NCBI GenBank assembly: GCA_025965875.1
Contig: JAOPWD010000407.1
Span: 1 to 44,595 of the forward strand
Origin: Pseudonocardiales bacterium
Lineage (GTDB): Bacteria; Actinomycetota; Actinomycetes; Mycobacteriales; Jatrophihabitantaceae
Length of the DNA: 44,595 nt
Direction: 5' to 3'
Below, piece after piece: positions 1 to 17,893 of this stretch (its first letter is position 1; every line of letters starts with the position of its first letter). A model generated the notes under the pieces. The model made no database searches. It was not told the DNA's origin and saw nothing but the letters and a program-made list of their open reading frames with translations. A program made the translations under genes and the position numbers.

Positions 1-1345
1 CCGCACGGTGGCCCACGACCCGGTCCACGAATGCGCCGGCCGCGCCGAGGGCAGCGCGCGGGTCAAGGCATTCGGCGATCTGATCGGGCGTGAGGTGCTC
101 GGTCACCCGCGCATCGGCGAGCAGTGCGTGCTCCAGGCTGAGGCCGTGTTCCCGGCCGGCCAGGCTCGCCTCGTAGACGACCTGGTGGGCGACGTGCTTG
201 CCGACGTGCTGCGCCAGCGCCCGCATCACCGGCTCGGACAGCACGTACCCACCCATGGCCGCGACGTTCGCGCTCATCCGCTCGGCGTCGACCTCGAGGC
301 CATCGAGCAAGCGGCAGGCATACGTCAGAGCGGCGCCGGTGAACAGACAGATCTCGGGGAACACAGCCCATTCCGTCTTCCACGCCCGCCCGTCGCGTTC
401 GTGCTCGTGGATCATCGCCTCGACGCTGACGCTCGCGTCGGCCCGGACGACGCGAGCGAGGGTTACGAGGTGTTCGGACAGTTCGGGATTGCGCTTGTGC
501 GGCATGGTGATACTGCCGACCTGCCCCGGCGAGAACGGCTCGCGCAGCTCGCCGATCTCGGGGCGCTGCAGGTCATAGACCTCCTGGCCGATCTTGGCCA
601 GGGTGGACGTCACCATGGCCAGCAGGCCCATGAACTCCGCCACGCCATCGCGGGCGGTGATCCACGGAACCTCAGGCTCGACCAGCCCGACGCGGTCGGC
701 GAAGGCATCCAGCAACGGCAGTGCGGCGTCACCCCAGAACTCCATCGTGCCCAGCGCGCCCCCGAGTTGCGCGACCTCCCAGCGATGCCGCCCGTCGGCC
801 AACCGCTCGCAGTGCCGGCGCAGCTCGGCTGCCCACACCGCCGCCTTGAACCCGAACGTGATCGGCAGACCCGGCTGGCCGTGGGTGCGCCCGCACATGA
901 TCGTCTCGCGATGCTTCTCGGCGAGGGCGACGGCCGCCGACACCGCATGTTCCAGGTCGCGGTCGAGGATCACACCGACTTCGCGCATGACCAGCGAGGT
1001 CCAGGTGTCGGAGACATCCTGGACGGTGGCGCCGTAGTACACCCACTCCCGCGCCCGCTCCGGCAACACCTCCTGCAGGCATCGGATCAGGCCGAGGGTG
1101 GAATGGCCGGTGGCCCGAGTCTGCTCCGCGACCTTCTCCAGGTCGAGCAGGTTCACGTCGGCGTGGACGCGGATCTCCCGTGCTGCGTCCACCGGGATCA
1201 GGCCGACCTCGGCCTGGGCTTCGGCCAGCGCGGCCAGGATCTCCAGCCACGACTGGACGCGACCCTCGTCGTCGAGCAGGCGCTTGATCTCCGGCGTTCC
1301 CCACAAGTGCCCGTACAGGATCGAGTCAGCGAGGTGGGCACTCAT
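1..1345 (-). CDS. Aspartase/fumarase-superfamily lyase, C-terminus cut by window edge (candidate CoM biosynthesis XcbC1/XcbD1-like)
   Basis: The first 448 codons are visible; the gene runs off the left edge. Starting at ATG 1345 the protein begins MSAHLADSILYGHLWGTPEI. It has the superfamily landmarks: HSTLG near residue 81, YGATVQDVSDT near 104, GRTHGQPG near 152 (the conserved His) and the signature loop GSITMPHKRNPE at 277-288. These are typical of adenylosuccinate lyase and carboxymuconate cycloisomerase relatives. It lies 12 bp after the preceding gene in an operon led by phosphosulfolactate synthase. In Xanthobacter autotrophicus Py2, XcbC1 and XcbD1 of bacterial CoM synthesis are members of this superfamily, and XcbC1 eliminates phosphate from phosphosulfolactate to give sulfoacrylate. 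I therefore infer a CoM-pathway lyase. A purine-pathway purB or catabolic cycloisomerase role cannot be excluded from sequence alone. A GAGGCGGGG ribosome site precedes the start. Confidence 0.85.
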   Translation of the reverse strand, partial: MSAHLADSILYGHLWGTPEIKRLLDDEGRVQSWLEILAALAEAQAEVGLIPVDAAREIRVHADVNLLDLEKVAEQTRATGHSTLGLIRCLQEVLPERAREWVYYGATVQDVSDTWTSLVMREVGVILDRDLEHAVSAAVALAEKHRETIMCGRTHGQPGLPITFGFKAAVWAAELRRHCERLADGRHRWEVAQLGGALGTMEFWGDAALPLLDAFADRVGLVEPEVPWITARDGVAEFMGLLAMVTSTLAKIGQEVYDLQRPEIGELREPFSPGQVGSITMPHKRNPELSEHLVTLARVVRADASVSVEAMIHEHERDGRAWKTEWAVFPEICLFTGAALTYACRLLDGLEVDAERMSANVAAMGGYVLSEPVMRALAQHVGKHVAHQVVYEASLAGREHGLSLEHALLADARVTEHLTPDQIAECLDPRAALGAAGAFVDRVVGHRA

Positions 1346-1357
1346 CGCGGCCCCGCC

Positions 1358-2269
1358 TCAGCCAACCGCGGCTTCGGCGCGCCGGTCGACTCCGGTCAGC
1401 CAGCGCAACGCCTGCCTGATTTCGTCGAGGTTGGCGCCCCACGGGACTACTGCGGTGCCGTCGCCGAAGTCGGTGCCCCGTTCCAGCAGGCAGCACTTGG
1501 TGAGGGTCATCGTGGCCTGCGAATCCGCTGGCGCGGCGCGCCGCCGCGGGCAGATGTCTACCCGGGGCGGCTCGTCACCGTAGAAGTGCTGGTGGAACTG
1601 CAGCGACCGCTCGCAGCCGACCATCAGCCAGTCGCGTCTCTCCGGCGGCCGGGTGTCGAGGAACGAGACCTCGTCCCCGACGTCGACTCCCGCGCCGCGG
1701 CAAGGCAGCAGGTAGTGCCCCGCAGGGTTGTCGGCGGCCAGTTCGCGGATATCCACCGCGTCCAGGACGAGATCGATGGGCGGCAGGTCCTCGTCGAACG
1801 CGATCACCTGCTCGGCCATGGCGAACAGCTTGGGCGGCTGCGGCGGCACCACCTCGGTCACCCGGATGGTGATCGGGGCGGGCTCCCAGATGAAGTTCAC
1901 GTGCTCGTAGCGTCCCTGCACGGCGTAGGCACGGGTGCCCGCGCGACGGTAGGGCAGCGTCGCAAGGGCTAGCGCCGTGGCGTTGCTGACATCAGTCTCC
2001 GGTGCCGTCACGTAGACGACCTCGTCCGGCCCGGCCAGCACCCTGACCTCGACCACCGGGGAGAACAGCGGCTCGGTCGATGCCTTGCGGACGGCCACGA
2101 TCGCGCTCGCCGTGCCGTTGCGCAGCAGTAGGTAATCGGTGCGGCGATATACCTCGCGGCCGAGCAGGTACGGCACGAGATCCATTTCGGTGAGCGGGAC
2201 GTCGACCTCTTGAACCGACAGCCCGCGGTAGGGCCGGGTGATGGTGTTGGGCGCCGGATCTTCGATCAC
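1358..2269 (-). CDS. Conserved hypothetical protein with a Cys/His-rich C-terminal half, inside the CoM biosynthesis operon
   Basis: This is a 303-aa protein I do not recognise. The GTG start at 2269 sits 2 bp after the comA stop, so translation is probably coupled; the next gene follows 12 bp downstream. There is no signal peptide or membrane segment. All five cysteines lie between residues 190 and 260 (C190, C219, C240 and the pair C259-C260), with an FHQHFYG stretch at 225-231. This spacing would suit a metal or Fe-S site, or a thiol-transfer role, but matches no motif I can name. Because it sits between phosphosulfolactate synthase and an aspartase/fumarase lyase, a step or accessory function in CoM synthesis (sulfur insertion, decarboxylation, sulfonate handling) is a reasonable inference. 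It is not shown by the sequence. The four described Xanthobacter Xcb proteins include no family that I can equate with it. Confidence 0.85.
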   Translation of the reverse strand: MIEDPAPNTITRPYRGLSVQEVDVPLTEMDLVPYLLGREVYRRTDYLLLRNGTASAIVAVRKASTEPLFSPVVEVRVLAGPDEVVYVTAPETDVSNATALALATLPYRRAGTRAYAVQGRYEHVNFIWEPAPITIRVTEVVPPQPPKLFAMAEQVIAFDEDLPPIDLVLDAVDIRELAADNPAGHYLLPCRGAGVDVGDEVSFLDTRPPERRDWLMVGCERSLQFHQHFYGDEPPRVDICPRRRAAPADSQATMTLTKCCLLERGTDFGDGTAVVPWGANLDEIRQALRWLTGVDRRAEAAVG

Positions 2270-2271
2270 GG

Positions 2272-3039
2272 CTACACCCGCACGCCCGCCAGCGCAGTGT
2301 CGGCCCGCAGGCCCAGCCGGAGTGTCTCGAGCGCGAGGACCTCCTCTGGCGGCACGTTGCCCAGGTTGACGCCTGCCCCGAACCGCTTGACGAACCACGC
2401 CTGTTGGGACTTGCGTGGTGCCTCGAAGATGACCCGGTCGACCGGGATGCGCTCGGCGATCGCGTCGACCAGGTCGGCGCGCACGCTGCCGTCGCCGTGG
2501 TAGAGCCCGACCGTGCCGCTCTCGCGGCCCTCGGCAACGACCCAGGACGCGCCGGCGTCGAGGTCGGTCGCCATCTCGGCCAGCCATTCCTCCGTGACCA
2601 CCGGCGCGTGGTCGTCCTTGGCGCCCGTCTCGGCGAACACGGTGAGTCGGGCGGACAGTTGGCCCACCAGTTCGGTCTTGCGCTCGGACGTCATTGCCTC
2701 GAGCCCGTCGGACACCTCGACCGCGCCGATGCCGACGGAAGCGGCCCACTCGCACAGTTCGTCGACCCGGCCCTGGGCGACGCATATCTCGAGCAGCGTG
2801 CCGCCGAGCGTCACCAGGACGCCGGCCTCGCTGCACAACGCGACGCGGTGCTTGACCGTCGGGTCGATGTAGGCGATGCCCCACCCGATCTTGATCACGT
2901 CGATCAGGTGCCCCGCCTGGGCCAGCAGGGCTTCGAGGGCTGCTGTCGTCATTCCCTTGTCGAGAACATGGGTCAGGCCGCGGCTGCGCGGCTTCTGGTC
3001 ACGCTCGGGTAGCTCGAGGAAGTTCGGACAGTCCCACAC
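2272..3039 (-). CDS. comA: Phosphosulfolactate synthase (ComA/XcbB1 family)
   Basis: It is predicted to add sulfite to phosphoenolpyruvate, giving (R)-phosphosulfolactate, the first committed step of the PEP-dependent coenzyme M route in methanogens and in Xanthobacter (XcbB1). The 255-aa TIM-barrel protein carries the family's conserved blocks in order: RGLTHVLDKG, DVIKIGWGIAYI, LGGTLLEI, VEVSDG, VFAETGAKDD, VAEGRESG and IFEAPRKSQQAWFV, then VNLGNV. The length is normal for the family. The GTG start at 3039 is supported by a GGAGG site 9 nt upstream. It is the first gene of a minus-strand operon and diverges from the CoM-utilisation genes across a 188-bp promoter region. Some bacteria carry ComA homologues for other sulfonate products, but the downstream neighbours make CoM the best assignment. 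Confidence 0.9.
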   Translation of the reverse strand: MWDCPNFLELPERDQKPRSRGLTHVLDKGMTTAALEALLAQAGHLIDVIKIGWGIAYIDPTVKHRVALCSEAGVLVTLGGTLLEICVAQGRVDELCEWAASVGIGAVEVSDGLEAMTSERKTELVGQLSARLTVFAETGAKDDHAPVVTEEWLAEMATDLDAGASWVVAEGRESGTVGLYHGDGSVRADLVDAIAERIPVDRVIFEAPRKSQQAWFVKRFGAGVNLGNVPPEEVLALETLRLGLRADTALAGVRV

Positions 3040-3126
3040 CGCGCAACGCCTCCACTCATCGGTCCAGGTCCAGGACCTGCTTCAGACTCGGGCTCGAACG
3101 TATCTCCGCACCCCCGCGCCGTCAGT

Positions 3127-3171
3127 GGCCCGCGGGGACGAATGAATCGCCATCCTTCGTCCCGCCGGGCC
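3127..3171. promoter_or_regulatory. Imperfect palindrome in the divergent promoter region between comA and the CoM-utilisation genes
   Basis: Two 16-nt arms (3127-3142 and 3156-3171) pair at 14 of 16 positions around a 13-nt centre. The inner half-sites are GGGACGAA and TTCGTCCC. It is the most obvious symmetric element in the 188-bp gap between the two divergent operons, so it could be an operator for both. Being GC-rich, it could also be a chance hairpin. No binding protein is identified; the PucR-type regulator encoded at 12.2-13.8 kb is one candidate. Confidence 0.4.
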
Positions 3172-3227
3172 ATGGGGTCTCGCCGCATGCCAGACCTACC
3201 GTGAGCCACGAACGATGGGAGTGCCTC

Positions 3228-4622
3228 GTGCACCAGCGACTGGTTGTGGTCGGCGGCGGTGCGGCCGGGATGTCGGCCGCGTCCGCGGCGCGCCGGCTGG
3301 ATCCCGACCTCGACATCGTCGTGTTGGAGGCCGGTGGGTACGCCGCATACGGCATGTGCGGCCTGCCCTACTACCTCAGCGGCGTCGTGGCCGGGGCCGA
3401 GGCGTTGCTCGCCTACCCTCCGTCGTTCTTTCGGGAGCAACGCCGCGTGGATCTACGCCTGCACACCCCGGTCACCAGGCTCGACCCCGATCACCAGGTC
3501 GTGCATTTCCGCGAGAACGGCCGCGACGCCCGGCTGGAGTACCACCGGCTGATCGTCACGACGGGGGCGACGCCGGTCGTGCCGCCCTTGCGCGGCCTCG
3601 ACGACCCATACGTGTTCACCGTGCGGACGATGGAGGACGCGATCAGCCTGCGCAGCCTGATCGACGCCGGGCACATCGGCCGGGCGCTGATCGTCGGCGG
3701 CGGCTACATCGGTCTGGAGATGGCCGAGGCGATGGCCGCCCGCGGGGTGAAGGTGACGCTGGCCGAGGCGCTGCCCGCCTTGATGCCCAACCTGGACCCG
3801 CCGATCTCGGAGCTGGTCGAGGAGGAGGTGCGCCGACACGGCGTGGACCTGCGCCTGGGCATCAGCCTCGAGCAGGTGCGCCGCACGCCCGACGGGCTCA
3901 AGGCGATCCTGGGCGGCAAGTCCGTCCCAGTGGACGTCGTCGTGGTGGCCGTCGGCGTACGCGCCGGGGCGACGATCGCCGCCGAAGCCGGCGCCGCGAC
4001 CGGTCCGGGCGGCGCGTTGCTGGTCGACGACCAGATGCGTACGTCGCTGCCCGATGTCTACGCCGCGGGGGACTGCATCGCGCCCTTCCACCGCGTGCTT
4101 GGCCGGCCGGCGTTCGTGCCGTTGGGGCCGGCCGCCAACAAGACCGGTCGGGTCGCGGGCACGGTTGCCGCCGGCGGGCAGGCCCGGTTCACCGGCATCG
4201 TCGGCACCGCGGTCGTCAAGGTGTTCGACCTGGCTGTGGCCCGCACTGGTCTCACCCTGGGCGAGGCCATGGCCGAGGGACTGCCGGCAGTCGCCACCGA
4301 CACCGTCGGCAAGTCCCGGGCCAAGTACTACCCGGGCTCGGACCCGGTCCACGTCCGGCTCGTCCACGAGACCGGCGGCCGGCTGCTCGGGGCGCAGATG
4401 GTCGGCGGCGACGGGGTGGCCAAGCGCATCGACGTGGTCGCCGTGGCGTTGCAGGCCGGCTTCGATGTCGACGAACTGGCCGGCGCCGATCTCTCCTACG
4501 CGCCGCCGTATGCGCCGGTCTACGAACCGATCCTGCTCGCGGCCCAGGCCGCTCAGGCGAAATCCGCCCCGGACCGCCCGGCCGAAGCGCCAAGTCACGC
4601 CGCGGCCGGGTCGCGACGATGA
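3228..4622 (+). CDS. FAD-dependent pyridine nucleotide-disulfide oxidoreductase, CoA-disulfide reductase-like
   Basis: This 464-aa flavoprotein has an N-terminal dinucleotide fold (VVVGGGAAGMSAA), a central NAD(P)H fold (ALIVGGGYIGLEMAEAMAARG), the FAD-binding segment VYAAGDCIAPF and a C-terminal dimerisation domain. A single active-site cysteine lies in YGMCGLPYYLSG (C44), the arrangement of CoA-disulfide reductase and NADH oxidase, which use one Cys instead of a redox pair. It opens the operon of CoM-dependent enzymes, so reduction of CoM disulfide, mixed CoM disulfide or another low-molecular-weight disulfide is a sensible inference. CoA disulfide is the family default. The GTG at 3228 was chosen because GGGAG lies 6 nt upstream; an in-frame GTG at 3201 would add nine residues. 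The gene ends in an ATGA overlap with the next. Confidence 0.82.
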   Translation: MHQRLVVVGGGAAGMSAASAARRLDPDLDIVVLEAGGYAAYGMCGLPYYLSGVVAGAEALLAYPPSFFREQRRVDLRLHTPVTRLDPDHQVVHFRENGRDARLEYHRLIVTTGATPVVPPLRGLDDPYVFTVRTMEDAISLRSLIDAGHIGRALIVGGGYIGLEMAEAMAARGVKVTLAEALPALMPNLDPPISELVEEEVRRHGVDLRLGISLEQVRRTPDGLKAILGGKSVPVDVVVVAVGVRAGATIAAEAGAATGPGGALLVDDQMRTSLPDVYAAGDCIAPFHRVLGRPAFVPLGPAANKTGRVAGTVAAGGQARFTGIVGTAVVKVFDLAVARTGLTLGEAMAEGLPAVATDTVGKSRAKYYPGSDPVHVRLVHETGGRLLGAQMVGGDGVAKRIDVVAVALQAGFDVDELAGADLSYAPPYAPVYEPILLAAQAAQAKSAPDRPAEAPSHAAAGSRR

Positions 4623-5371
4623 CCGCCGAGCCGCACGACCCGGTGAGCAGCACCCCCCGGGTCGCCGTCGTGACCGGTGGCGCCTCGGGCATCGGCCGAT
4701 CCACCGCGACGCGGCTGAGCGCCGACGGCTGCCGGGTCGCCGTCCTCGACCTCGGCGACGCGGGGGGGACCGACGCTGAACTCACGCTGCGGACCGACGT
4801 GACCGACCCGGAGGAGGTCGAGACTGCGTTCAAAGAGGTCGTGGCCACGTTCGGCCGCATCGACGTCCTGGTCAACAACGCCGGCATCACCGGGTCGGCC
4901 GAGGCCACGCGCTGCCACGAGACGCCGATCGACGAGTGGGATCGGGTGCAGGCGGTCAATGTGCGCGGCCCCTTCCTCTGCACCCGCGCCGCGTTGCCGA
5001 CGATGCTGCGGCAGGGCTCGGGCCACATCATCACGGTGGCCTCGGTGGCCGGCCTGATCGCCTTTCCGGGACGGTGCGCCTACACGACGTCCAAGGGTGC
5101 GGCGGTGCAGTTCACCAAGTCTCTGGCCGTCGACTACGCCAGCGCCGGCATCCGCGCCAACGCCGTGTGTCCCGGCTTCGTCGAGACGCCGATGACGCAA
5201 TGGCGCCTCGACCAGCCGGAGCTGCGCGCGCAGGTCGAGACCAAGATCCCGCTCGGCCGTGTCGCGCAACCTGAGGACATCGCCGACGCCATCGCCCTGC
5301 TCGCCTCCGACCGGCTGGTTTACATGACGGGTCATTCGCTCGTGGTCGACGGCGGCTGGACCGCTTGGTAG
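4619..5371 (+). CDS. xecD: 2-(R)-hydroxypropyl-CoM dehydrogenase-like SDR
   Basis: This is a 250-aa classical SDR predicted to oxidise the R-hydroxyalkyl-CoM thioether to the ketoalkyl-CoM with NAD+. It has the cofactor motif TGGASGIG at 19-26, NNAG at 86-89 and the catalytic set Ser142, Tyr155, Lys159. The residues known in Xanthobacter R-HPCDH to hold the CoM sulfonate appear at the same numbers as I recall them: Arg152 in FPGRCAYTTSKG, and Arg196 and Arg203 in TQWRLDQPELR. That stretch is nearly identical to the Xanthobacter enzyme. Ordinary SDRs lack these arginines, so the assignment is specific. The start overlaps the upstream stop as ATGA. Substrate chain length cannot be read from the sequence. 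Confidence 0.88.
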   Translation: MTAEPHDPVSSTPRVAVVTGGASGIGRSTATRLSADGCRVAVLDLGDAGGTDAELTLRTDVTDPEEVETAFKEVVATFGRIDVLVNNAGITGSAEATRCHETPIDEWDRVQAVNVRGPFLCTRAALPTMLRQGSGHIITVASVAGLIAFPGRCAYTTSKGAAVQFTKSLAVDYASAGIRANAVCPGFVETPMTQWRLDQPELRAQVETKIPLGRVAQPEDIADAIALLASDRLVYMTGHSLVVDGGWTAW

Positions 5372-5405
5372 TCAAGGAAATTCCCATCGAGAAAGGACGG
5401 CGACT

Positions 5406-6179
5406 ATGACCGGACGATTGGCCGACCGGGTGGCATTGGTGACGGGTGGCGGCTCGGGGATCGGGCTGGCCGCGGCCAATCTGTTCGCGGCTGAAGGGGC
5501 GGCCGTGGCCGTCGTGGACGTCCGGGCCGAGGCAGCCGACGAGGCTGCGGGCAAGATCGTCGCCGAGGGTGGCCGGGCGATCGCCCTCGTCGCCAACGTG
5601 GCCGACGCCGCCGAGGTGGCGGCGGCAGTGGATCGAGCCGCCGCAGAGTTCGGCCGGATCGACGTCCTCTACAACAACGCCGGCGTGAACAGCGCGGGCT
5701 CGGTCGCCGACGCCGCCGAGGACGACTGGGACCGCTGCTTCGACGTCAACGTCAAGGGCACCTTCCTGTTCTCGCGTGCGGTCGTCCCGCACCTGCGCGC
5801 TGCCGGCGGCGGGGCGATCGTCAACCAGGGCTCGGTAGCCGGCCTCGTGGGGGTCCCGAACTTCGCCGCGTACTGCGCGGCCAAGGGCGCAGTGGTGGCG
5901 CTGACCCGGTCGATGGCGATCGACCTCGCCCCGGACGGGATCCGGGTCAACGCCATCTGCCCGGGCACCGTGTTCACCCCGCTCATGGAGCCCATGCTGC
6001 GTGCCCGCGGCGACGGTGACCTCGCGGCCGGGCTGGCCAAGACCGTCGTCAAGTACCCGATCGGCCGCCTCGGCAACCCGGAGGAGATCGCCCGAGTGGC
6101 CTTGTTCCTGGCCAGCGACGACGCCTCGTTCGTCACTGGATCCATCGTGACCGCCGACGGCGGGATGACCGCGCAGTAG
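5406..6179 (+). CDS. xecE: 2-(S)-hydroxypropyl-CoM dehydrogenase-like SDR
   Basis: This is a 257-aa SDR with TGGGSGIG at 13-20, NNAG at 90-93 and the catalytic set Ser143, Tyr156, Lys160. The segments SVAGLVGVPNFAAYCAAKGA, VKYPIGRLGNPEEIA and the C-terminal GGMTA closely resemble Xanthobacter S-hydroxypropyl-CoM dehydrogenase. The pairing with an R-specific partner gives the stereo-complementary set needed to use both epoxide enantiomers. In the Xanthobacter enzyme Arg211 and Lys214 bind the sulfonate. Here the Lys is kept (Lys216) but the Arg position appears to be Thr213, with Lys212 next to it, so the sulfonate pocket may be altered. AAAGGA precedes the ATG. Function in the S-branch is inferred from similarity and context. 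Confidence 0.8.
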   Translation: MTGRLADRVALVTGGGSGIGLAAANLFAAEGAAVAVVDVRAEAADEAAGKIVAEGGRAIALVANVADAAEVAAAVDRAAAEFGRIDVLYNNAGVNSAGSVADAAEDDWDRCFDVNVKGTFLFSRAVVPHLRAAGGGAIVNQGSVAGLVGVPNFAAYCAAKGAVVALTRSMAIDLAPDGIRVNAICPGTVFTPLMEPMLRARGDGDLAAGLAKTVVKYPIGRLGNPEEIARVALFLASDDASFVTGSIVTADGGMTAQ

Positions 6180-6205
6180 GTCGCGCAGGAGGTAAGGAGC
6201 AGGCA

Positions 6206-7126
6206 GTGGCGTTCCATCTCGATACCGACAAGCTCGTCGACCTCGACCGGGCCGTGCGCTCGATCGAGGACGGCGCGTTGGTGGCCCTCGGCGGCGGGCT
6301 GTCGGCCCGGCTGCCGATGGCACTGGTGCGTGAACTGATCCGCCAGGGCCGCAGCGGGTTGCATGTCGTCGGCTCCGCCCACAGCATCGACGTCGACGTG
6401 CTCATCGCGACCGGCACAGTCACGGTCTGCGAGGAGAGCTACGTCGGGTTCGAACAGGATCTCGGGCTGGCGCCCGCGTACCGGCGGGCGGCGGAGACGG
6501 GCACCATCGAGGTCCGCGAGAGCTGCTGCGTCACCATCCTCACCCAACTGCGGGCGGCCGAGTTCGGGCTGCCGTTCCTGCCGGTGCGGGGCGTCAAAGG
6601 CTCCGACATACGCCGGCTGCATCCCGAATACCGCGAGGTGGTCTGCCCGTTCACCGGCGAGACCTTGGTCGCGGTCCCGCCGTTGCGTCCGGATGTGGCG
6701 CTGATCCATGCCCCCCTCGGTGACCGGCGCGGGAACCTGCACCTCGATCAGCCCTACGTCCTCGACGAGCGCTTCGCGGCCGCCTCGCGCAACGTCATCG
6801 CCACGGTCGAGCGGGTCGGTTCGGCCGAGGAGGTGGCCGCGGCCGGCGTGACGATCCCGGCGCACCTGGTGAGCGCGGTGGCCGAGGTGCCCTACGGCGC
6901 GCACCCCGCGTCGTGTTACCCCGCGTACGCCTACGACCGCGCCCACCTGGGCGAGTACGTGCGAGCGGCCACCGCCGGTGGCTCCGAGCTGGCCGAATAC
7001 CTGGACCGTTACCTCACCGGTCAGCCGACCGAGGAGGCCTACCGAAAGCTGGTCGGAGCCGACCGGCTGGCGGCACTGGGCCAGTGGTCGGAGTCGATCG
7101 ACGCCTGGAAGGAGCTGTTCCGGTGA
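6206..7126 (+). CDS. CoA transferase subunit A (family I, glutaconate CoA-transferase alpha-like)
   Basis: This 306-aa protein has the family I alpha-subunit layout: GALVALGGGLSARLPMALVREL near residues 23-45, GSDIRRLHPEYREVVCPFTGE near 132-152, and the DVALIHAPLGDRRGNLHL block shared by glutaconate and 3-oxoacid CoA transferase alpha subunits. The GTG start follows an AGGAGGTAAGGAG purine stretch. It pairs with the beta subunit 49 bp downstream. In the CoM pathway the end product is a beta-keto acid such as acetoacetate, so transfer of CoA to that acid is the likely role. The actual donor and acceptor are unknown, and some members of this branch (IpdAB) act as hydrolases on ring-derived CoA thioesters. 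Confidence 0.8.
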   Translation: MAFHLDTDKLVDLDRAVRSIEDGALVALGGGLSARLPMALVRELIRQGRSGLHVVGSAHSIDVDVLIATGTVTVCEESYVGFEQDLGLAPAYRRAAETGTIEVRESCCVTILTQLRAAEFGLPFLPVRGVKGSDIRRLHPEYREVVCPFTGETLVAVPPLRPDVALIHAPLGDRRGNLHLDQPYVLDERFAAASRNVIATVERVGSAEEVAAAGVTIPAHLVSAVAEVPYGAHPASCYPAYAYDRAHLGEYVRAATAGGSELAEYLDRYLTGQPTEEAYRKLVGADRLAALGQWSESIDAWKELFR

Positions 7127-7175
7127 GTGAGCATCGTAGCGAGCCCCAGCGAGCGAGGAGCGGAGCGAACACACG

Positions 7176-8033
7176 ATGAGCGCTCGCGCGAAGAGCAATG
7201 AACAGTGCTTCTCGATCGACGAGTGGTTCGTGGTCGCGCTGGCCCGCACCATCCGTGACCGTGAGGTCGTCTTCCACGGCTTCGGCAGCCCGTGTGCGCA
7301 GGTGGCGATGCACGTGGCCCGGCACAGCCACGCGCGGGACATGATGCTGGTCGAGGGCGCCACGTACTCCATCAACCCCGAGCCGCCGTTCATCCCGCCG
7401 ACCGGAAATGATCTGGCCCTGGAGCAGGGCGCGTCCTACCGGATGCGGTTCGAGGAGTTCTTCGACGCTGCGATACGCGGTGACGTCGACCGGATGTTCC
7501 TCTCCGGCGGCCAGATCGACCGGTACGGCAACACTAATGTCACCGCCGTCGGCCCGCTCGAGCGTCCCAAGGTGAAGCTTGGCGGCGGGGGCGGTGGCTG
7601 CAACCTCGCGGCCACGATCGGCCACCTGTCGCTCTGGACGACGCGGCACCGCTCGGGCCGCACGCTGGTCGAGCACTGCGACTTCATCACCGACATGGGC
7701 CACCGCACGCCGGCTGGCAGCCGGGCCGAGCTGGGCTTCGCCGGGGGCGGGCCGGAGTGGTTGGTGACCGAACTCGGTGTCTTCGACTTCGACGACGGCG
7801 GGCAGGCCCGCCTCCGTCAGCTGTTCCCCGACGTCAGCGTCGACACGGTGCGGGCCGCGACGGGCTTCGAGGTGCAGGTGGCGTCGGATCTGCGCTCAGT
7901 GCCGTTGCCGAGCAGCGCGGAGATCGCCGCACTGCGGGCCGTGGACCCGTTGGGCGTGCGACGTTCTGAGTTCGCACCGGAGGAGCTGCGGCGCACGTTC
8001 AGCCACGGACAGAGCGTGGGATGCGCCTGCTGA
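7176..8033 (+). CDS. CoA transferase subunit B (family I, glutaconate CoA-transferase beta-like)
   Basis: This 285-aa partner of the preceding alpha subunit shows FLSGGQIDRYGNTN near residues 108-121, the GGGGGGCNLAA glycine run near 132-142 and a C-terminal ELGVFDFDDGGQARL block, all typical of beta subunits. A LVEGA segment near residue 58 may hold the catalytic glutamate that forms the glutamyl-CoA intermediate, but I could not align it rigorously. That residue decides whether this is a transferase or a hydrolase-type relative. GGAGCGAAC precedes the ATG. Its last 13 nt overlap the start of the acyl-CoA synthetase gene, so the two are probably co-translated. Confidence 0.78.
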   Translation: MSARAKSNEQCFSIDEWFVVALARTIRDREVVFHGFGSPCAQVAMHVARHSHARDMMLVEGATYSINPEPPFIPPTGNDLALEQGASYRMRFEEFFDAAIRGDVDRMFLSGGQIDRYGNTNVTAVGPLERPKVKLGGGGGGCNLAATIGHLSLWTTRHRSGRTLVEHCDFITDMGHRTPAGSRAELGFAGGGPEWLVTELGVFDFDDGGQARLRQLFPDVSVDTVRAATGFEVQVASDLRSVPLPSSAEIAALRAVDPLGVRRSEFAPEELRRTFSHGQSVGCAC

Positions 8034-10183: not shown

Positions 10184-10243
10184 CGTGCACGAGGTCGGCA
10201 AACGCCGCGCGGGGGCTGCAACCTCCGATGAAAGGGGTATCCC

Positions 10244-11353: not shown

Positions 11354-11378
11354 CCCGACGCACAACTGCGTAGGTCAC

Positions 11379-11429
11379 GGCGCACCTGGTGGGTTCCAGT
11401 GGGTTCCAACGGAACCCGCCAGGTGCGCC
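11379..11429 (+). terminator. Long stem-loop after the EaCoMT-like gene
   Basis: A 19-nt stem (11379-11397 with 11411-11429) pairs at 18 of 19 positions around a 13-nt loop, starting 25 nt after the stop codon. It has no T-run, as usual in high-GC actinobacteria. It probably ends the CoM-utilisation operon or protects its 3' end. The loop repeats part of the arm (GTGGGTTCCA occurs twice in tandem), allowing an alternative slipped hairpin. Confidence 0.65.
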
Positions 11430-11532
11430 GGTTGCTGCCCCCGAAGGTTGAGCATTTCCGAGGAATTGGTACCGGCAGGTCTAGAAACCGCCCCACTCCA
11501 TTGCCTATTGTGGGTTCGTCACGAGAGGGGCC

Positions 11533-12150
11533 ATGCCGATGCTGCCCAGTTCCGTTGCCGTGGGAATTCCGGGCGTCGATCTCGCCCCCGGCGACCATGT
11601 GTGCGTGTTTTATCCGGGCTTGGCCGAGCGCAACGAGATCCTGATCCCGTACCTGCGTGCGGGCCTGCAAGCCGGCGACAAGTGCGTCTGCGTCGTCGAC
11701 GCCGACGAGCCGGACGACGTCGTTTCGGCGTTGGGGCCCGATGTCGACCTGGGCGGGCGACTGGGCCGCCAACAACTCGAGGTTCAACGCTCACAGGACA
11801 CCTACCTCAAGGGCGGCGCCTTCTCCACCGAAGCAATGCTGGAGTTCTGGGATCGCGAGGTCGGCGGCGCGGTGGAGGGCGGCTTCAGTTTCGCTCGGGC
11901 CGCCGGCGAGATGACGTGGGCGCTGCGCCAACTGCCTGGAGTGGATGAGCTGATCGGGTACGAATCGCGACTGAATCAGTTCCTGCCGCGCTACCCGCAG
12001 GTCATTCTATGCTTCTACGAACTCGACATGTTCAGCGGCGAACTGCTGGTCGACGTGCTCAAGACGCATCCCAAAGTGCTGCTGGGCGGCATGGTTCTCG
12101 ACAATCCGTACTACTTGGAGCCCGACGAGTTCCTGGCCTCACGGAACTGA
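11533..12150 (+). CDS. MEDS (DcmR sensory) domain protein
   Basis: This 205-aa protein consists almost wholly of a MEDS domain (methanogen/methylotroph, DcmR sensory). It shows the opening GDHVCVFYPGLAERNEILIPYLRAGLQAG-type pattern (residues about 20-48), CVCVVD, and the closing LPRYPQVILCFYELDMFSGELL followed by HPKVLLGG. Such domains sense small, often hydrocarbon-related ligands in DcmR-like regulators. There is no DNA-binding domain here. The stop lies 2 bp before the PucR-type regulator start, so sensor and regulator are probably made together and may interact. The position in the CoM island suggests it senses an alkene, epoxide, CoM thioether or similar; this is inference. Confidence 0.8.
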   Translation: MPMLPSSVAVGIPGVDLAPGDHVCVFYPGLAERNEILIPYLRAGLQAGDKCVCVVDADEPDDVVSALGPDVDLGGRLGRQQLEVQRSQDTYLKGGAFSTEAMLEFWDREVGGAVEGGFSFARAAGEMTWALRQLPGVDELIGYESRLNQFLPRYPQVILCFYELDMFSGELLVDVLKTHPKVLLGGMVLDNPYYLEPDEFLASRN

Positions 12151-12152
12151 GC

Positions 12153-13841
12153 GTGACGGTCACCGCACCGGAGGCCACCCGGGCAGACACGGAGCTGCGC
12201 AGCCAGCTCTCGGACCTGCAATGCCTGTTGATGCTGTCGATGCTGATGACCGAGAGCGGCGACGAGGGCAAGATCCTGCAGCTCGCCGCCACGTCGGTGC
12301 CATCGTTCGGTCACACCCATCTGATCGGCGTGCGCTTTACCGACGGCAACTGGTGGGGGCCGGGGCCTGCCGCGGCGACCGAGGGTCTGCGCGACGAGGT
12401 CCAGGCGCAGGTGGCGCTGCTCGATGCGAGCGGTGGCGCGATAGCGGTGGCCGGCCAGGGCTGGACCTGGGCGTTACCACTGCGGGTGTTCGCCGGTCAC
12501 CTCGGTTACTTCATCGTTGCGGCGGCGAAAGAGCCCGCTGCGTCAGAACAGTTCCTGTTGCGCGTTCTCGCGCAACAAACCGGTGTGGCGCTCGGAAACT
12601 CGCGCCTGCACACAAAGGAGCGGTCCTCGGCTGAGGAGTTGCGGGCCGCGAACGCCGCGCTGGCCGAGACCGTGCGTGCCTTGGAGCAGTCGACCCAGAT
12701 CCACGATCGGTTCACCCGGGTGGCCATGGCTGGCGAAGGGCAGGACGGTGTGGCCCGAGCTCTACATGAGCTGACCGGATACCCGGTGGCCGTGGAGGAT
12801 CGCTACGGCAACCTGCGGGCGTGGGCCGGACCTAACCGTCCCGACCCGTACCCGAAGGATCCGCAGGCGCGGCGCGAGCAGATGCTGCGGCGCGCGCTGC
12901 GCGAAGGTCGCCCGATCCGCGAGGGTGGCCGGCTGGTGGCGCTGGCCAGCCCGTCGGCCGAAGTGCTCGGGGTGCTCGCGCTGATCGACCCGGCCGGTGC
13001 GGTCGGCGACCGTGAGCAGATCGCCATCGAACATGGCGCCACCGTCCTGGCCATGGAGCTGGCCCGGCTGCGCAGCCTGGCCGAGGCGGAGTTGCGGCTG
13101 CGGCGCGATCTGGTCGAGGAGTTGCTGTCCGGCACCGAGGAGGAAGGCGCCGTGGCCCGGGCGCAGGCACTTGGTCATGACCTGGAGCAGCGCAACCGGG
13201 TCGTGGTGGCCGAGGGGCGCGGACGCGTCAAGAGTCAGGAGCCGTTCTTCCACGCCGTCCGCCGTGCTGCGCGCGACCTGCACGTCGGCTCGCTGCTCGT
13301 CGCCCGCGGTGACTCCGTCGTGCTGATCTCGGACGCCGACCTGCCGTGGGAGCGATTCCGGATGGCGATCCTGACCGAGCTGGGTGGCGGCCGGTGCAGC
13401 CTCGGAGTCGGTGGCTGGTGCAGCCATCCGCGCGACCTGCCGCGCTCCTACCGCGAGGGCCAGTTGGCGTTGCAGATGCAGGGCATCGCGCACGGCAAGG
13501 ACCGGGCCACCTGCTACGACGACCTGGGTGTGTACCGGATTCTGTGCGAGGTGCAGGACGGCTCGAGTGTCGAGCGCTTCGTGCGGCAGTGGCTGGGCAC
13601 GTTGCTGGAGTACGACGAGCGCAAGCACTCCGACCTGGTCACCACGTTGACCCAATACCTGGAGTGCGGCGGCAGTTACGACGCCACGGCGCTGGCGCTG
13701 TCGGTGCACCGCAGCACGCTGAAGTACCGGCTGCAGCGGATCCGCGAGATCTCCGGGCACAACCTCACCGATCCCGACACCAACTTCAACCTGCAACTGG
13801 CCACCCGCGCCTGGCGCACCCTCCAAACCCTGCAAGCGTAG
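12153..13841 (+). CDS. PucR/CdaR-type transcriptional regulator with GAF-like sensor
   Basis: This 562-aa protein starts at GTG 12153, 2 bp after the MEDS gene. The N-terminal part (about 15-150) looks like a GAF domain, ending in FLLRVLAQQTGVALGNSRL. A coiled segment rich in Ala/Glu follows, then a second sensor-like region (YPVAVEDRYGNLRAW to GVLALID). The C-terminus is the PucR helix-turn-helix: LVTTLTQYLECGGSYDATA, LSVHRSTLKYRLQRIREISG and the closing DPDTNFNLQLATRAW. Regulators of this family usually activate catabolic operons. With the MEDS partner it is the obvious candidate controller of the CoM genes on both sides. The ALDH gene converges on it with an 18-bp gap. Confidence 0.85.
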   Translation: MTVTAPEATRADTELRSQLSDLQCLLMLSMLMTESGDEGKILQLAATSVPSFGHTHLIGVRFTDGNWWGPGPAAATEGLRDEVQAQVALLDASGGAIAVAGQGWTWALPLRVFAGHLGYFIVAAAKEPAASEQFLLRVLAQQTGVALGNSRLHTKERSSAEELRAANAALAETVRALEQSTQIHDRFTRVAMAGEGQDGVARALHELTGYPVAVEDRYGNLRAWAGPNRPDPYPKDPQARREQMLRRALREGRPIREGGRLVALASPSAEVLGVLALIDPAGAVGDREQIAIEHGATVLAMELARLRSLAEAELRLRRDLVEELLSGTEEEGAVARAQALGHDLEQRNRVVVAEGRGRVKSQEPFFHAVRRAARDLHVGSLLVARGDSVVLISDADLPWERFRMAILTELGGGRCSLGVGGWCSHPRDLPRSYREGQLALQMQGIAHGKDRATCYDDLGVYRILCEVQDGSSVERFVRQWLGTLLEYDERKHSDLVTTLTQYLECGGSYDATALALSVHRSTLKYRLQRIREISGHNLTDPDTNFNLQLATRAWRTLQTLQA

Positions 13842-13859
13842 GACTCGGCGGCGGGTTGG

Positions 13860-15272
13860 TCAGCGGCCGTACTTTTGCCAGTAGGCGCCGAAGAGTTCCT
13901 CTTCGCTGACCGGGCTCGGGCTGATGGGCCGCGACACCCACGTGAGGTTGACGAAGTGCCGGGCGTTGACGTTCTCGGTGGTGATGTTGCCGCCCCAGGT
14001 GCCGCAGCTCAGGCTCAGCGTGAACGGCAGGCCGTTGCGTGGGCTGCCGGCGCCCTCGTTGAGGTTCTGGTTGACGAGGACGCGCGCGGTTTTCGTGCCG
14101 AACGCCAGCGCGTCAACGTGGTCGTCGCGACTGGTGTGGATGCCGCAGGTGTGCCCGATGCCCTGATAGCCGGTGATGGCATTCACCTGCTCGACCGCGT
14201 TCTCGATGCCGTCGGCATAGCGATACACGGCAAGCACCACGGAGAGTTTCTCGCCCGAGAAGGGATGTTCGGGGCCGACGCCGTCCTCTTCGACGATGAG
14301 GAAGCTGCGGTCGTCGATTGTGAACCCGGCCAGCTCGGCTATCGCCTGCGCTGACTTGGCGATGACGTCGGGCGTGGGCACCGGGCCCCCGTCGGGCCAC
14401 ATCCGTTTCTGCAGCAGGGCTTTCTCCTCCGCGTTGCACAGGTGTCCGCCGCGAGCGACGAGCCGGTCCAGCAGGTCCGAGTAGATCCCGGCCTCGGCCA
14501 CGACGGCGTTGTCGGCCAGACAGCTGGTGGCGTAGTCGAAGGTCTTCGCCATGACGATGGCCGCCGCCGCGTCGTCCAGGTCGGCGCTCTCGTCGACGAC
14601 ATGGACGGCGTTACCGACCCCTACTCCGTAGGCGGGCGTCCCGGAACTGTAGGCGGCCTTGACCATCCCCGCGCCGCCGGTGGCGACGACGAGATCAACC
14701 TGCTTCATCAACTGCTGGGTCTTGGCGATCGACGGGCTGGGCAGCATCTGCACGAGGTCGGCGGGCGCGCCGACCTCGGCGCAGGCCTCGCGCATGAAGT
14801 CCACCACGGCAGCCGTCGTGTCGGTGGTGCGTGGGTGTGGCGCCATGATGATCGCGTTGCGGCCCTTCAGCGCGAACAGCGCCTTGACCGGCGGGGTGGC
14901 GTCCGGGCCGGTGGTGGGGATCAGCGCGGCGACCACTCCGACCGGCTTGGCGATCTTGACCAGGCCCCGGTCGGGGTCCTCCTCGACGACGCCGACCGTG
15001 CGGACGGCGCGCATGTCCGACAGCACACCCAGGACGCGCTTATTGATCTTGGTGACCTTGTCTTCGTAGTTGCCGAAGCCGCCCTCGTCCACTGCCAACT
15101 TGGCCAGCGCCTCGGCCCGCTCGCTGCGCGCCACCGCCCACGCCACCGCGGTGCAAAGCTCGTCGACCTGGTCCTGCGTGTAGTCGGCGATGGCAGCCTG
15201 CGCGGTCCGAGCCCGGCCGACCACCTCCGCGACTTCCTGCTGCGCCGTGTCCTGCTGAGTCGTCTGGGTCAT
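13860..15272 (-). CDS. CoA-acylating aldehyde dehydrogenase (acetaldehyde/sulfoacetaldehyde dehydrogenase-like)
   Basis: This 470-aa aldehyde dehydrogenase is of the short acylating type. The catalytic cysteine is Cys251 in YATSCLADNAVV. IPTTGPDATPPVKALFALKGRNA at 118-140, VVATGGAGMVKAAYSSG at 195-211 and NQNLNEGAGSPRNGLPFTLSLSCGTWGGN near the end are typical of the EutE/AdhE/SauS branch. It would turn an aldehyde, NAD(P)+ and CoA into acyl-CoA. In this context sulfoacetaldehyde, a relative of CoM intermediates, or a short aldehyde from the substrate are both plausible; sequence alone does not decide. ATG 15272 was chosen; upstream in-frame extension lacks a ribosome site. It diverges from the 2-KPCC-like gene with 118 bp between starts. 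Confidence 0.82.
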   Translation of the reverse strand: MTQTTQQDTAQQEVAEVVGRARTAQAAIADYTQDQVDELCTAVAWAVARSERAEALAKLAVDEGGFGNYEDKVTKINKRVLGVLSDMRAVRTVGVVEEDPDRGLVKIAKPVGVVAALIPTTGPDATPPVKALFALKGRNAIIMAPHPRTTDTTAAVVDFMREACAEVGAPADLVQMLPSPSIAKTQQLMKQVDLVVATGGAGMVKAAYSSGTPAYGVGVGNAVHVVDESADLDDAAAAIVMAKTFDYATSCLADNAVVAEAGIYSDLLDRLVARGGHLCNAEEKALLQKRMWPDGGPVPTPDVIAKSAQAIAELAGFTIDDRSFLIVEEDGVGPEHPFSGEKLSVVLAVYRYADGIENAVEQVNAITGYQGIGHTCGIHTSRDDHVDALAFGTKTARVLVNQNLNEGAGSPRNGLPFTLSLSCGTWGGNITTENVNARHFVNLTWVSRPISPSPVSEEELFGAYWQKYGR

Positions 15273-15357
15273 GGGGAAACATTGCCGCGAACACGCCCGG
15301 AGACGGATCGACCCGGCAGGACGAACTTGGCTCAATGTGCCGTCCGGCTGGGACGTG

Positions 15358-15375
15358 TCGGACGCAGCGGTCCGA
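15358..15375. promoter_or_regulatory. Perfect inverted repeat in the ALDH / 2-KPCC divergent promoter
   Basis: TCGGAC and GTCCGA are separated by six bases, ending 15 bp before the ATG of the 2-KPCC-like gene. It lies within the 118-bp divergent promoter region and could be an operator. Six-base arms are short, so chance occurrence is possible. Confidence 0.3.
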
Positions 15376-15390
15376 ACGCATTGTTGCTGC

Positions 15391-16950
15391 ATGGACCTGC
15401 GAAACACCGTGCTGAGCATGGCTGAATGGGAAGACCTCATCCACCGCGCAGAGATCGGCGAGGTCGGCGAACCCCTCGTCAACGTCGACCACCTCGATTC
15501 CTCGCCCTACGACGCGATCTTCGTCGGCGGTGGCGCGGGCGGCCGCTTCGGATCCGCCTACCTGAAGGCGCGCGGCGGTCGGCAGCTGGTGATCGACAAG
15601 TGGCCGTTCCTCGGCGGTTCGTGCCCGCATCACGCCTGCGTGCCGCACCACCTCTTTTCCGAGGCGGCCCGGGAGATGGACTACCAGCGGTGGAACGCGG
15701 GAACGCTGTGGTTCCCGGAGTTCGACGACAAGCGGTGCTCGATCCTCGACCTGGTCGAACTGTTCAAGAACGGGCGCAACAACGCGCATGCGTTCATGAA
15801 TTGGCAGAGCAAGGAGCAGTTGGGGATGGAGTACATCCTCAACACCCCAGCCACGGTGATCGACGCCAACACCGTCGAGGTGGCCGGCGAGCGTTACAAC
15901 ACCCGCAACATCGTGCTCGGCACCGGCGCGAGCACCTACCTGCCCGACGTCCCCGGTATCGAAAAGCCGGGCGTCTTCGACTTCGTGAGCCTCATCGAGG
16001 AACTCGACTACGAGCCGTCGCGCTGCGTCATCATCGGCGGATCGAAGATCGCCCTCGAGTACGGCTCGTTCTACCAGGCCGCCGGCTGCCAGACGACGAT
16101 CGTCTCGCGCAGCCCGCTCATGCGCACCGCCAGCCTGCACCACGTCGACGAGGATCTGCGCACCTACGTCGTCGACGGGATGCGCAAGCGGGGCGTCGAG
16201 ATCCTTGAAGGCGCCCAGCCGATCGAGGTGCTCGGCAACGGCAAGGTCACCGGGGTGCGCGTCCAGTTGGCCGACGGAAGCGAGCGGACGATCGATACCG
16301 ACTTCGTCTTCATCGGGACGGGCGAGCGACCCAAATCGCAGCCCTATGTCGACGCCCTCGGCGTTGAGGTTGACGACCGGGGCAGCATCGTCGTCGATTC
16401 GCGGATGCGTACGTCGGTGCCGGGTGTGTACGCGATCGGTGACCTGATCGGCTCGCCGATGGAGATGTTCAAGGCGCGCAAGTGCGGCATGACGGCCGCG
16501 CGCAACATCATGGGCGAGCCGTACGAGTTCGACTTCTCCGAGTACCCGGACTTCCTGCACACGACGTACGAGGTGACGTGGGTCGGGCTGACGGAGGCCG
16601 AGGCGCGCGAGCGCTACGACGACGTCGTGGTCATCCAGATGCCGCCCAAGGGCCTGCGCAACGAGGAGCTCAGTCTGCCGATGGCGGAAGGTTCGATGCT
16701 CTACGGGTTTACCCGGCCCGAGCTCAGCGGTTTCCAGAAGGCGGTCTATGACGGTAAGACCCGGCTGCTGCTGGGCGCACACCACGTCGGGTTCGGCGCG
16801 AAGGACGCGTTCCAGTACCTCGATCACCTGATCCGCAAGGGCATCACGGTGGATGAGATGGGGGAGATGAACGAGCTGTTCCTCAACCCCGACCACTTCA
16901 TCCAGCTGTCCCGGTTGCGGGCGGGGCAGTTGGATCTCACCAGCCTGTGA
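15391..16950 (+). CDS. xecC: 2-ketopropyl-CoM oxidoreductase/carboxylase-like disulfide oxidoreductase
   Basis: This 519-aa FAD/NADPH disulfide oxidoreductase closely resembles Xanthobacter 2-KPCC (523 aa), which cleaves 2-ketopropyl-CoM and carboxylates the carbanion to acetoacetate and CoM. The redox pair is Cys78/Cys83 in GGSCPHHACVPHH. Where normal family members have a His-Glu dyad, this protein has Phe497 and His502 (NELFLNPDHFIQL), the substitution that makes 2-KPCC a carboxylase by excluding protons. The sulfonate-binding arginines of 2-KPCC correspond to Arg52 (GRFGSAYL) and Arg363 (MEMFKARK). NADP- and FAD-binding segments are IIGGSKIALEYGSF and VYAIGDLIGSPMEMF. ATG 15391 gives an N-terminus alignable with XecC; ATG 15418 is an alternative, and neither has a clear ribosome site. 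A related ketothioether could be the substrate. Confidence 0.93.
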   Translation: MDLRNTVLSMAEWEDLIHRAEIGEVGEPLVNVDHLDSSPYDAIFVGGGAGGRFGSAYLKARGGRQLVIDKWPFLGGSCPHHACVPHHLFSEAAREMDYQRWNAGTLWFPEFDDKRCSILDLVELFKNGRNNAHAFMNWQSKEQLGMEYILNTPATVIDANTVEVAGERYNTRNIVLGTGASTYLPDVPGIEKPGVFDFVSLIEELDYEPSRCVIIGGSKIALEYGSFYQAAGCQTTIVSRSPLMRTASLHHVDEDLRTYVVDGMRKRGVEILEGAQPIEVLGNGKVTGVRVQLADGSERTIDTDFVFIGTGERPKSQPYVDALGVEVDDRGSIVVDSRMRTSVPGVYAIGDLIGSPMEMFKARKCGMTAARNIMGEPYEFDFSEYPDFLHTTYEVTWVGLTEAEARERYDDVVVIQMPPKGLRNEELSLPMAEGSMLYGFTRPELSGFQKAVYDGKTRLLLGAHHVGFGAKDAFQYLDHLIRKGITVDEMGEMNELFLNPDHFIQLSRLRAGQLDLTSL

Positions 16951-16957
16951 GGCGAGC

Positions 16958-17893
16958 ATGCGCGTGGCAATGGGCATCGGCGGCGACGTCCTCGGTGCGC
17001 CCATCACGCCGCAGCAGGTAGTCGAGCAGGCTGAGCAGGCCGAACGGGACGGCTTCCCGTCGGCCTGGACAACGCATTTCGCGCGGGGCGTCGATGCGCT
17101 GAGCATGCTCGCGGTGGCCGGCACCAAGACCAGCCGAATCGAGTTGGGTGTCGGGGTCGTGCCAACCTACCCGCGCCATCCGCTCGCACTGGCCCAACAG
17201 GCGGCCACGACCCAGGCGTTCTGCGGCGGTCGGCTCACCCTGGGGGTCGGTGTCTCGCACCGACCGGTGATCGAAGACTTGCATGGCATCCCGTATGTGC
17301 GCCCGGCTGCGCACATGCGGGAGTACCTGTCGGTCCTGGTCCCGCTGCTCAACGAGGGCACGGTGAACTATGCCGGCGAGTTCTACCGGGTCAATGGCGG
17401 CTTCACGGTGCCGGGCACCAGCCCCGTTTCGGTGGTCGTCGCTGCCCTGTCGCCGAAGATGGTGCAGGTCGCCGGCGAATGTGCGGACGGCGTCGTGACC
17501 TGGTTGGCCGGGGTGCGCAGCCTGGAGGGGCACATTGTCGGGCCGCTGACCCAGGCTGCGGCAGCCGCCGGTCGTCCGCGCCCGAGGGTCGTCGTGGCCC
17601 TGCCGGTCGCCGTGTGCGACGACGCCGACCTCGGCCGGCAGAGTGCCGACACGGTGTTCGCGCGCTACGCCACGCTGCAGAACTACCAGCAGTTGTTCGA
17701 ACGCGAAGGCGTGCAGTCGCCGGGCGCCGCCGCCGTGGTCGGAACTGAAGCGGACGTGACCGACCAGTTGCGCCGGTTCGCAGACGCCGGCACCACCGAA
17801 TTGTGGCCAATCGTGTTCGGCGTGGGCGCAGACCCCCAGGCCAGCATCCGGCGCACCCAGCACTTGCTCGCCGAGCTGGCGAAAACCGGCTGA
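16958..17893 (+). CDS. LLM-class (luciferase-like) flavin-dependent oxidoreductase
   Basis: This 311-aa TIM-barrel protein is of the bacterial luciferase/F420-dependent reductase superfamily. Landmarks are RVAMGIGGD at the N-terminus, QAEQAERDGFPSAWTTHF, TSRIELGVGVVPTYPRHPLALAQQA, GRLTLGVGVSHRPV and a C-terminal glycine-rich VVGTEADVTDQLRRFADAGTTEL. It may use F420 or FMN; the sequence does not settle this. It starts 7 bp after the 2-KPCC-like gene, so the two are co-transcribed and it probably acts in the same pathway, perhaps on substrate or redox supply. Its reaction is unknown. Confidence 0.8.
   Translation: MRVAMGIGGDVLGAPITPQQVVEQAEQAERDGFPSAWTTHFARGVDALSMLAVAGTKTSRIELGVGVVPTYPRHPLALAQQAATTQAFCGGRLTLGVGVSHRPVIEDLHGIPYVRPAAHMREYLSVLVPLLNEGTVNYAGEFYRVNGGFTVPGTSPVSVVVAALSPKMVQVAGECADGVVTWLAGVRSLEGHIVGPLTQAAAAAGRPRPRVVVALPVAVCDDADLGRQSADTVFARYATLQNYQQLFEREGVQSPGAAAVVGTEADVTDQLRRFADAGTTELWPIVFGVGADPQASIRRTQHLLAELAKTG

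Follow-up and report, generated by a model that had tools for sequence, protein, structure and literature searches.

A predicted coenzyme M-dependent epoxide locus without a linked alkene monooxygenase in a draft actinobacterial genome

Gene content of the locus

The stretch of DNA analysed here (the window; 44,595 nt) is the entire contig C130 (JAOPWD010000407.1) of a draft actinobacterial genome (Pseudonocardiales bacterium, GCA_025965875.1; 5.0 Mb, 549 contigs, 89.67% complete), and its positions 1-17,893 carry genes for the synthesis of coenzyme M (CoM), a cofactor that is rare among bacteria, side by side with genes for CoM-dependent epoxide metabolism (Table 1). The organism is uncultured, and a pathway of this kind would degrade small, toxic epoxides that arise from gases like ethene and propene. 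A leftward operon, of which the window holds the genes for ComA/XcbB, XcbA and XcbD, diverges from a rightward operon which starts with a flavoprotein resembling CoA-disulfide reductase (CoADR) and continues with two short-chain dehydrogenases/reductases (SDR1 and SDR2), CoA-transferase subunits A and B, an ADP-forming CoA ligase and EtnE, an epoxyalkane:CoM transferase (EaCoMT). An inverted repeat follows etnE, and beyond it lie the genes for a MEDS-domain sensor, a PucR-type regulator, a SauS-like dehydrogenase on the opposite strand, a homologue of 2-ketopropyl-CoM oxidoreductase/carboxylase (2-KPCC) and an F420-dependent oxidoreductase. Judging from sequence comparison, we consider it very likely that this is a complete and probably chromosomal locus for epoxide assimilation or detoxification of the known CoM kind.

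Codon-position GC content (GC3) was used to sort real genes from numerous mirror open reading frames (ORFs). All genes named in an earlier sequence-only reading are present as GC3-supported ORFs where it had placed them, including the acid-activating enzymes and regulators, which are borne out by family matches. That reading took ORF 3215-5371 for a single gene; this region comprises the flavoprotein gene, in a different frame, and the SDR1 gene. It also missed the XcbA (DUF7714) gene.

Table 1. Features of the CoM-epoxide locus in the window
Feature	Position	Strand	Evidence
XcbD, 3-sulfopropionylcysteine synthase, aspartase/fumarase superfamily	2..1345	-	NF052536 730.7 bits (cut-off 600)
XcbA family protein (DUF7714)	about 1358..2257	-	PF24830; NF052538 434.7 bits (cut-off 150)
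XcbB/ComA, phosphosulfolactate synthase	2272..3039	-	PF02679 272 bits; TIGR03849 232 bits (under cut-off 280)
Candidate operator, CTTCGTCC-N5-GGACATGG-like sites on both strands	3123..3176	between divergent operons	Overlaps 20-nt inverted repeat 3126-3145/3153-3172
CoA-disulfide-reductase/NADH-oxidase-like flavoprotein	3201..4622	+	TIGR03385 388.7 bits (cut-off 578.8); 6RUZ, 4FX9
SDR1, R-HPCDH-like (XecD type)	4619..5371	+	Best solved structure 2CFC; 57% to Xaut_4868
SDR2, S-HPCDH-like (XecE type)	5406..6179	+	Best structures 4GH5/4ITU; 49% to Xaut_4869
CoA-transferase subunit A	6206..7126	+	PF01144; 73-79% to JS614/NBB4 pMYCCH.01
CoA-transferase subunit B	7176..8033	+	PF01144; 77% to JS614/NBB4 pMYCCH.01
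ADP-forming acyl-CoA ligase	8021..10183	+	PF13549, PF13607, PF13380; TIGR02717
EtnE, putative epoxyalkane:CoM transferase	10244..11353	+	86% to JS614, 73% to NBB4, 49.5% to Xanthobacter XecA
Strong inverted repeat, probable terminator	11378..11430	after etnE	25-nt arms, 88% complementary, 3-nt loop
MEDS-domain sensor, EtnR2-like	11533..12150	+	PF14417 159 bits
PucR/CdaR-type regulator, EtnR1-like	12009..13841	+	PF13556, PF17853; 66% to JS614
SauS-like CoA-acylating aldehyde dehydrogenase	13860..15272	-	NF047625 559.5 bits (cut-off 600; acylating sulfoacetaldehyde dehydrogenase SauS)
2-KPCC homologue	15271..16950	+	1MO9 589 bits; 87% to JS614, 82.5% to NBB4
F420-dependent LLM-class oxidoreductase, accompanies 2-KPCC	16958..17893	+	TIGR03564 311 bits (cut-off 234); same neighbour in NBB4

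Assignment of the CoM synthesis and epoxide-processing enzymes

The bacterial CoM biosynthesis set XcbA, XcbB, XcbC, XcbD and XcbE is present together in this genome, XcbA and XcbD with scores above the curated cut-offs. The aspartase/fumarase lyase of the sequence-only reading is XcbD, and its ComA-type synthase is likewise confirmed by the family match. The XcbD gene extends past the left window edge, and its stop codon is located in contig C110, the final 127 bases of which are identical to those that open the window; the XcbD frame continues across this overlap and stops immediately ahead of an XcbE-like gene, which lies together with an XcbC-like gene at the end of C110. An overlap of k-mer size is the usual mark of neighbouring contigs; graph branches can end contigs too. 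We join C110 to C130 because the overlap is exact and because the order XcbC-XcbE-XcbD-XcbA-ComA is also found in Mycobacterium chubuense NBB4 and Nocardioides sp. JS614. Since C110 supplies XcbE and XcbC, both identified by nearest family and synteny, the CoM synthesis set is complete. A serA-like gene on the same stretch of C110 suggests that the locus is probably chromosomal.

XcbA carries five cysteines (C186, C215, C236, C255 and C256) that are invariant in an alignment from Actinobacteria through Xanthobacter. Its AlphaFold model is confident (pLDDT 86.6), and comparison of the model with PDB folds gave no convincing match (TM about 0.2 or less). By position and length its gene is the conserved hypothetical gene 'xcbF1' of the vinyl chloride/ethene cluster published for mycobacteria and JS614 (PMC8727900). 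In the record of Xanthobacter autotrophicus Py2, the XcbA gene beside the xcb operon Xaut_4872-4875 looks split by a frameshift (L019:15934-16778), and two intact XcbA copies lie elsewhere on the Py2 plasmid (Xaut_5051 and Xaut_5070).

The protein encoded at 10244, described in the sequence-only reading as a zinc CoM-transferase, retains the zinc motif H219-x-C221 and C337 and matches JS614 EtnE and XecA as listed in Table 1; identity to EtnE falls to about 32% among other MetE-like proteins. In trees it groups with the EaCoMTs of actinobacteria and apart from the MetE-like proteins, with long outgroup branches and an exact root that is unsure, and the first structural matches of both SDRs are CoM dehydrogenases, so that neither of the two groupings which that reading had named as speaking against it, with MetE and with non-CoM dehydrogenases, was found. 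EtnE is therefore predicted, from its sequence, to conjugate CoM to small epoxides. SDR1 keeps R152 and R196, which we take to be the sulfonate-binding residues of R-HPCDH, as well as S142, Y155 and K159, presumably the catalytic S-Y-K of the SDR family. The 2-KPCC homologue, the start of which is probably nearer 15391 than 15271, scores 589 bits against 1MO9 as compared to 131 bits for the next family, mercuric reductase. It keeps all diagnostic residues (C118/C123, H120, R92, R403, F537, H542 and Q545 in the numbering of the homologue itself), and retained in Xanthobacter numbering are R56, C82, H84, C87, H137, R365, F501, H506 and Q509; among these we take C82/C87 to be the redox disulfide, Phe501/His506 to replace the His-Glu dyad and Arg56/Arg365 to form the CoM site. 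The 2-KPCC-like enzyme of the earlier reading is thus upheld. Finally, the flavoprotein has a CoADR-like active-site cysteine in the motif YGMCGLPYY.

The MetE-like, SDR and disulfide-reductase genes all come from large superfamilies and might on this ground be taken for routine genes of housekeeping or secondary metabolism that have nothing to do with CoM. However, the 86-87% identity and common gene order with JS614 and NBB4, the diagnostic residues of 2-KPCC and the scores of XcbD and XcbA above curated cut-offs make such an explanation highly improbable. Two observations weigh against our assignments: XcbC (419 bits, cut-off 575), XcbE (325 bits, cut-off 450) and ComA score under their curated NCBIfam cut-offs, and in SDR2, which keeps K214/Y215 of what is presumably the S-HPCDH sulfonate site (Arg211/Lys214 with Tyr215), R211 is replaced by Thr.

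Proposed pathway and source of the epoxide

In the pathway that we propose, the XcbB-XcbA-XcbD-XcbE-XcbC operon, which runs leftward into C110, would make CoM, and EtnE, given its 86% identity to a known EaCoMT, would use it to open a small epoxide to 2-hydroxyalkyl-CoM, the R and S forms of which may then be oxidised by SDR1 and SDR2 to 2-oxoalkyl-CoM. With C3 units, 2-KPCC, whose active site is fully kept, would reductively carboxylate 2-oxopropyl-CoM to acetoacetate, which could then be activated by the CoA-transferase or ligase. With C2 units, 2-oxoethyl-CoM might be converted to a CoA ester by the SauS-like dehydrogenase, for which it could be a substrate as it is likewise sulfonate-bearing, and/or by the ligase or transferase, and the CoADR-like flavoprotein might cleave the thioether to yield acetyl-CoA and CoM. 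This C2 chemistry is a suggestion of our own that we hold with low confidence, and the literature proposes a malonate semialdehyde route instead.

The conversion of epoxypropane to acetoacetate, as put forward in the sequence-only reading, describes one branch and not the whole of the pathway, as the nearest characterised owners use ethene or vinyl chloride and as both propene-type and ethene-type modules are present. In published clusters of the ethene type a CoA-transferase/synthetase and etnE stand ahead of the monooxygenase, and those of the propene type contain two dehydrogenases and 2-KPCC (PMC6440738); the window locus combines the two. For degraders of ethene and vinyl chloride, only a few of the steps that would lead 2-hydroxyethyl-CoM into central metabolism have experimental confirmation (PMC11507031), and the SauS-like dehydrogenase, the CoADR-like flavoprotein, XcbA and a second EaCoMT-like protein (see below) are candidates for the missing ones.

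Where, then, would the epoxide come from? The alkene monooxygenase genes etnABCD, which adjoin etnE in etn clusters for ethene and vinyl chloride, are absent from the window. A dedicated EtnC-type monooxygenase elsewhere in the genome was considered and rejected, as the search gave only a PrmA-like alpha subunit of 39% identity on contig C99. This homologue is a PrmA/group-5-type diiron monooxygenase, 76-77% identical to Rhodococcus plasmid copies and encoded in a prmABCD-type operon together with a reductase, a beta subunit, an amidohydrolase, a Zn-alcohol dehydrogenase and a GroEL-like gene. Among 19 EtnE-bearing genomes searched, an EtnC-type enzyme (93%) occurs in N. pocheonensis only; many of the others, like our genome, have a homologue at 37-41% identity. 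The PrmA-type monooxygenase is present in 11 of 20 EtnE genomes as compared to 7 of 394 in the class sample (Fisher p = 3e-12, a statistic that ignores relatedness and common habitat; two of the 20 may be one Thermocrispum species), and in 10 of these 11 the copy is 88-95% identical. From this co-occurrence we infer that the epoxide may arise through co-oxidation of ethene or propene by the unlinked PrmABCD-type enzyme, a source to which we give roughly even chances.

Several findings speak against it. Common habitat may account for some of the co-occurrence, and 9 of the 20 EtnE genomes are without the PrmA-type monooxygenase. The assumption that the close PrmA subtype is always accompanied by EtnE had to be rejected, since two genomes carry the former without the latter (one of them only 63% complete), and so had the assumption that the unlinked monooxygenase is under the same operator as the locus, since there is no convincing copy of the motif (see below) at the monooxygenase locus. 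Moreover, with the genome 89.7% complete and rpoB not found in the draft, which is a sign of assembly gaps, the missing etnABCD is weak evidence.

These gaps would also suit an ordinary cluster for growth on ethene/propene, with a dedicated alkene monooxygenase that the draft merely fails to include, and JS614, NBB4 and N. pocheonensis do possess such a monooxygenase. However, the operon around etnE is intact without one, and all but one of the 19 other EtnE genomes searched, among them Amycolatopsis sp. 2-2 with its complete chromosome, gave no EtnC-type enzyme, which makes us regard a growth cluster of this kind as rather unlikely. Alternatively, and as a narrower version of the co-oxidation reading, the locus may serve mainly to detoxify co-oxidation epoxides, with no growth on alkenes. 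The lack of a linked alkene monooxygenase and the co-occurrence with a propane-monooxygenase-type enzyme are in line with this, and a precedent has been proposed for the methanotroph Methylohalobius crimeensis, whose EtnE cluster has no alkene monooxygenase and is ethylene-induced (PMC11507031). The full carbon-assimilation modules (2-KPCC, CoA-transferase and ligase) go beyond the needs of detoxification, yet M. crimeensis likewise has CoA-activating genes and this surplus is thus not decisive; we regard a mainly detoxifying role as possible, though somewhat short of an even chance.

Relatives, regulation and a second transferase

The locus belongs to a published type of CoM-epoxide cluster. 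The sequence-only reading held the arrangement to be possibly undescribed in this lineage, which does not stand, as plasmids of JS614 and NBB4 have these genes in almost the same order and the set has been published for mycobacteria and JS614 (PMC8727900). NBB4 plasmids carry this set in two versions and JS614 has it on pNOCA01. In the CoM locus of NBB4 pMYCCH.01 (MYCCH_RS26650-26725), XcbC-XcbE-XcbD-XcbA-ComA diverge from CoADR-SDR1-SDR2-CoA-transferase A and B-ligase in identical order, with 51% identity for XcbC and 66-79% for the remainder, and the aldehyde dehydrogenase/2-KPCC/LLM genes are also present. Different from the window, however, the NBB4 locus is plasmid-borne, is linked to a group-4-like monooxygenase (56% to EtnC), holds the dehydrogenase/2-KPCC/LLM block on the opposite side and has no EtnE within the 45 kb read, whereas the window has, straight after the ligase, EtnE and the MEDS and PucR genes. 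The ethene/vinyl chloride cluster of JS614 shares nearly all gene types (EtnE 86%, 2-KPCC 87%) but has etnABCD directly 3' of etnE and a single SDR in the operon. Xanthobacter Py2 has homologues of most steps in its xecACDE and xcb operons (about 40-57% identity), in other gene order and with the CoA-transferase/ligase set in a separate cluster, Xaut_5065-5075. This cluster (L018:31515-43691) holds a second set of CoADR-like, ligase, CoA-transferase, SDR, XcbA and ComA genes and resembles the actinobacterial locus. Finally, the epoxyethane cluster of M. crimeensis also combines EtnE and CoM synthesis without an alkene monooxygenase, but this is a gammaproteobacterial methanotroph, in which the epoxide comes from particulate methane monooxygenase (PMC11507031). 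What is new are the lack of linked or found etnABCD, the PrmA-type enrichment, the second EaCoMT-like protein and the operator-like motif.

Further EtnE loci, 25 in number and actinobacterial or likely so (58-86% identity), were found in Mycobacterium, Nocardioides, Amycolatopsis, Thermocrispum, Pseudonocardia, Geodermatophilaceae, Streptosporangiaceae and other bins. Within the order sample EtnE is present in 2 of 399 genomes, our own and one with a Thermocrispum-like EtnE, which agrees with the locus having been called uncommon, and the listed mates from its genus and family are all without it. The Thermocrispum-like EtnE suggests that the order probably takes in Pseudonocardiaceae. Lateral acquisition of the cluster would suit this rarity among relatives. 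True absence of 2-KPCC from some loci was considered and is not claimed, as the flanks ended at 10 kb and later loci have the gene just upstream. In about two dozen actinobacterial loci the gene set is conserved, an operator-like motif is present and an alkene monooxygenase is recurrently absent, suggesting that CoM-based epoxide handling is broader in actinobacteria than alkene-growth isolates imply.

MEDS and PucR/CdaR regulators lie beside the cluster as in the etn clusters for ethene and vinyl chloride, where MEDS/CdaR regulators of etn genes have been documented (PMC8784404), and the EtnR2/EtnR1-like proteins of the window may act on the divergent operator. The motif CTTCGTCC-N5-GGACATGG emerged from an alignment of divergent intergenic regions; sites with spacing 5 and up to 3 mismatches lie upstream of CoADR, EtnE, ComA, 2-KPCC or LLM genes at many loci, with scattered matches elsewhere too. 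A matrix of 17 sites from other loci ranked 3155(+) first in the window (23.1) and 3123(-) second (14.3), both in the divergent promoter. Since the best of 20 null sequences scored 16.4, 3123(-) taken by itself falls short of significance, and since the window was part of the seed alignment and the choice of the 17 sites was guided by position, the evidence for this candidate operator is suggestive and not independent.

On contig C358 our genome encodes a second EaCoMT-like protein (346 aa; L008:986-2026, minus strand; L099), 32% identical to EtnE with the zinc motif kept, whose gene adjoins genes resembling E1 alpha and beta of a thiamine-dependent dehydrogenase. Besides our genome it is present in 6 of 20 EtnE genomes and in none of 394 others, and in those six it sits among other CoM-epoxide genes (other loci listed: L100, L101, L102, L103, L104, L105 and L025). 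Its best plasmid matches are EaCoMTs. It may be a transferase that acts on a different epoxide or CoM adduct. We tentatively propose, with less than even confidence, that the CoM-epoxide loci of actinobacteria make up a wider system, in part undescribed, which is uncoupled from alkene monooxygenases, works with the unlinked PrmA-type subtype, has a common operator and, in a subset including our genome, a second EaCoMT-like transferase beside E1 alpha/beta, and which would handle other epoxides than epoxyethane or the products of co-oxidation.

The remainder of the window (17976-44595) is a block resembling a dormancy/hypoxia regulon, with Acg-type nitroreductase-like genes, universal stress proteins, two-component systems, phosphoketolase and acetate kinase, and further a GNAT-acyl-CoA ligase fusion, a NuoF-like protein and a phosphoribulokinase-like gene (377 bits, cut-off 236).

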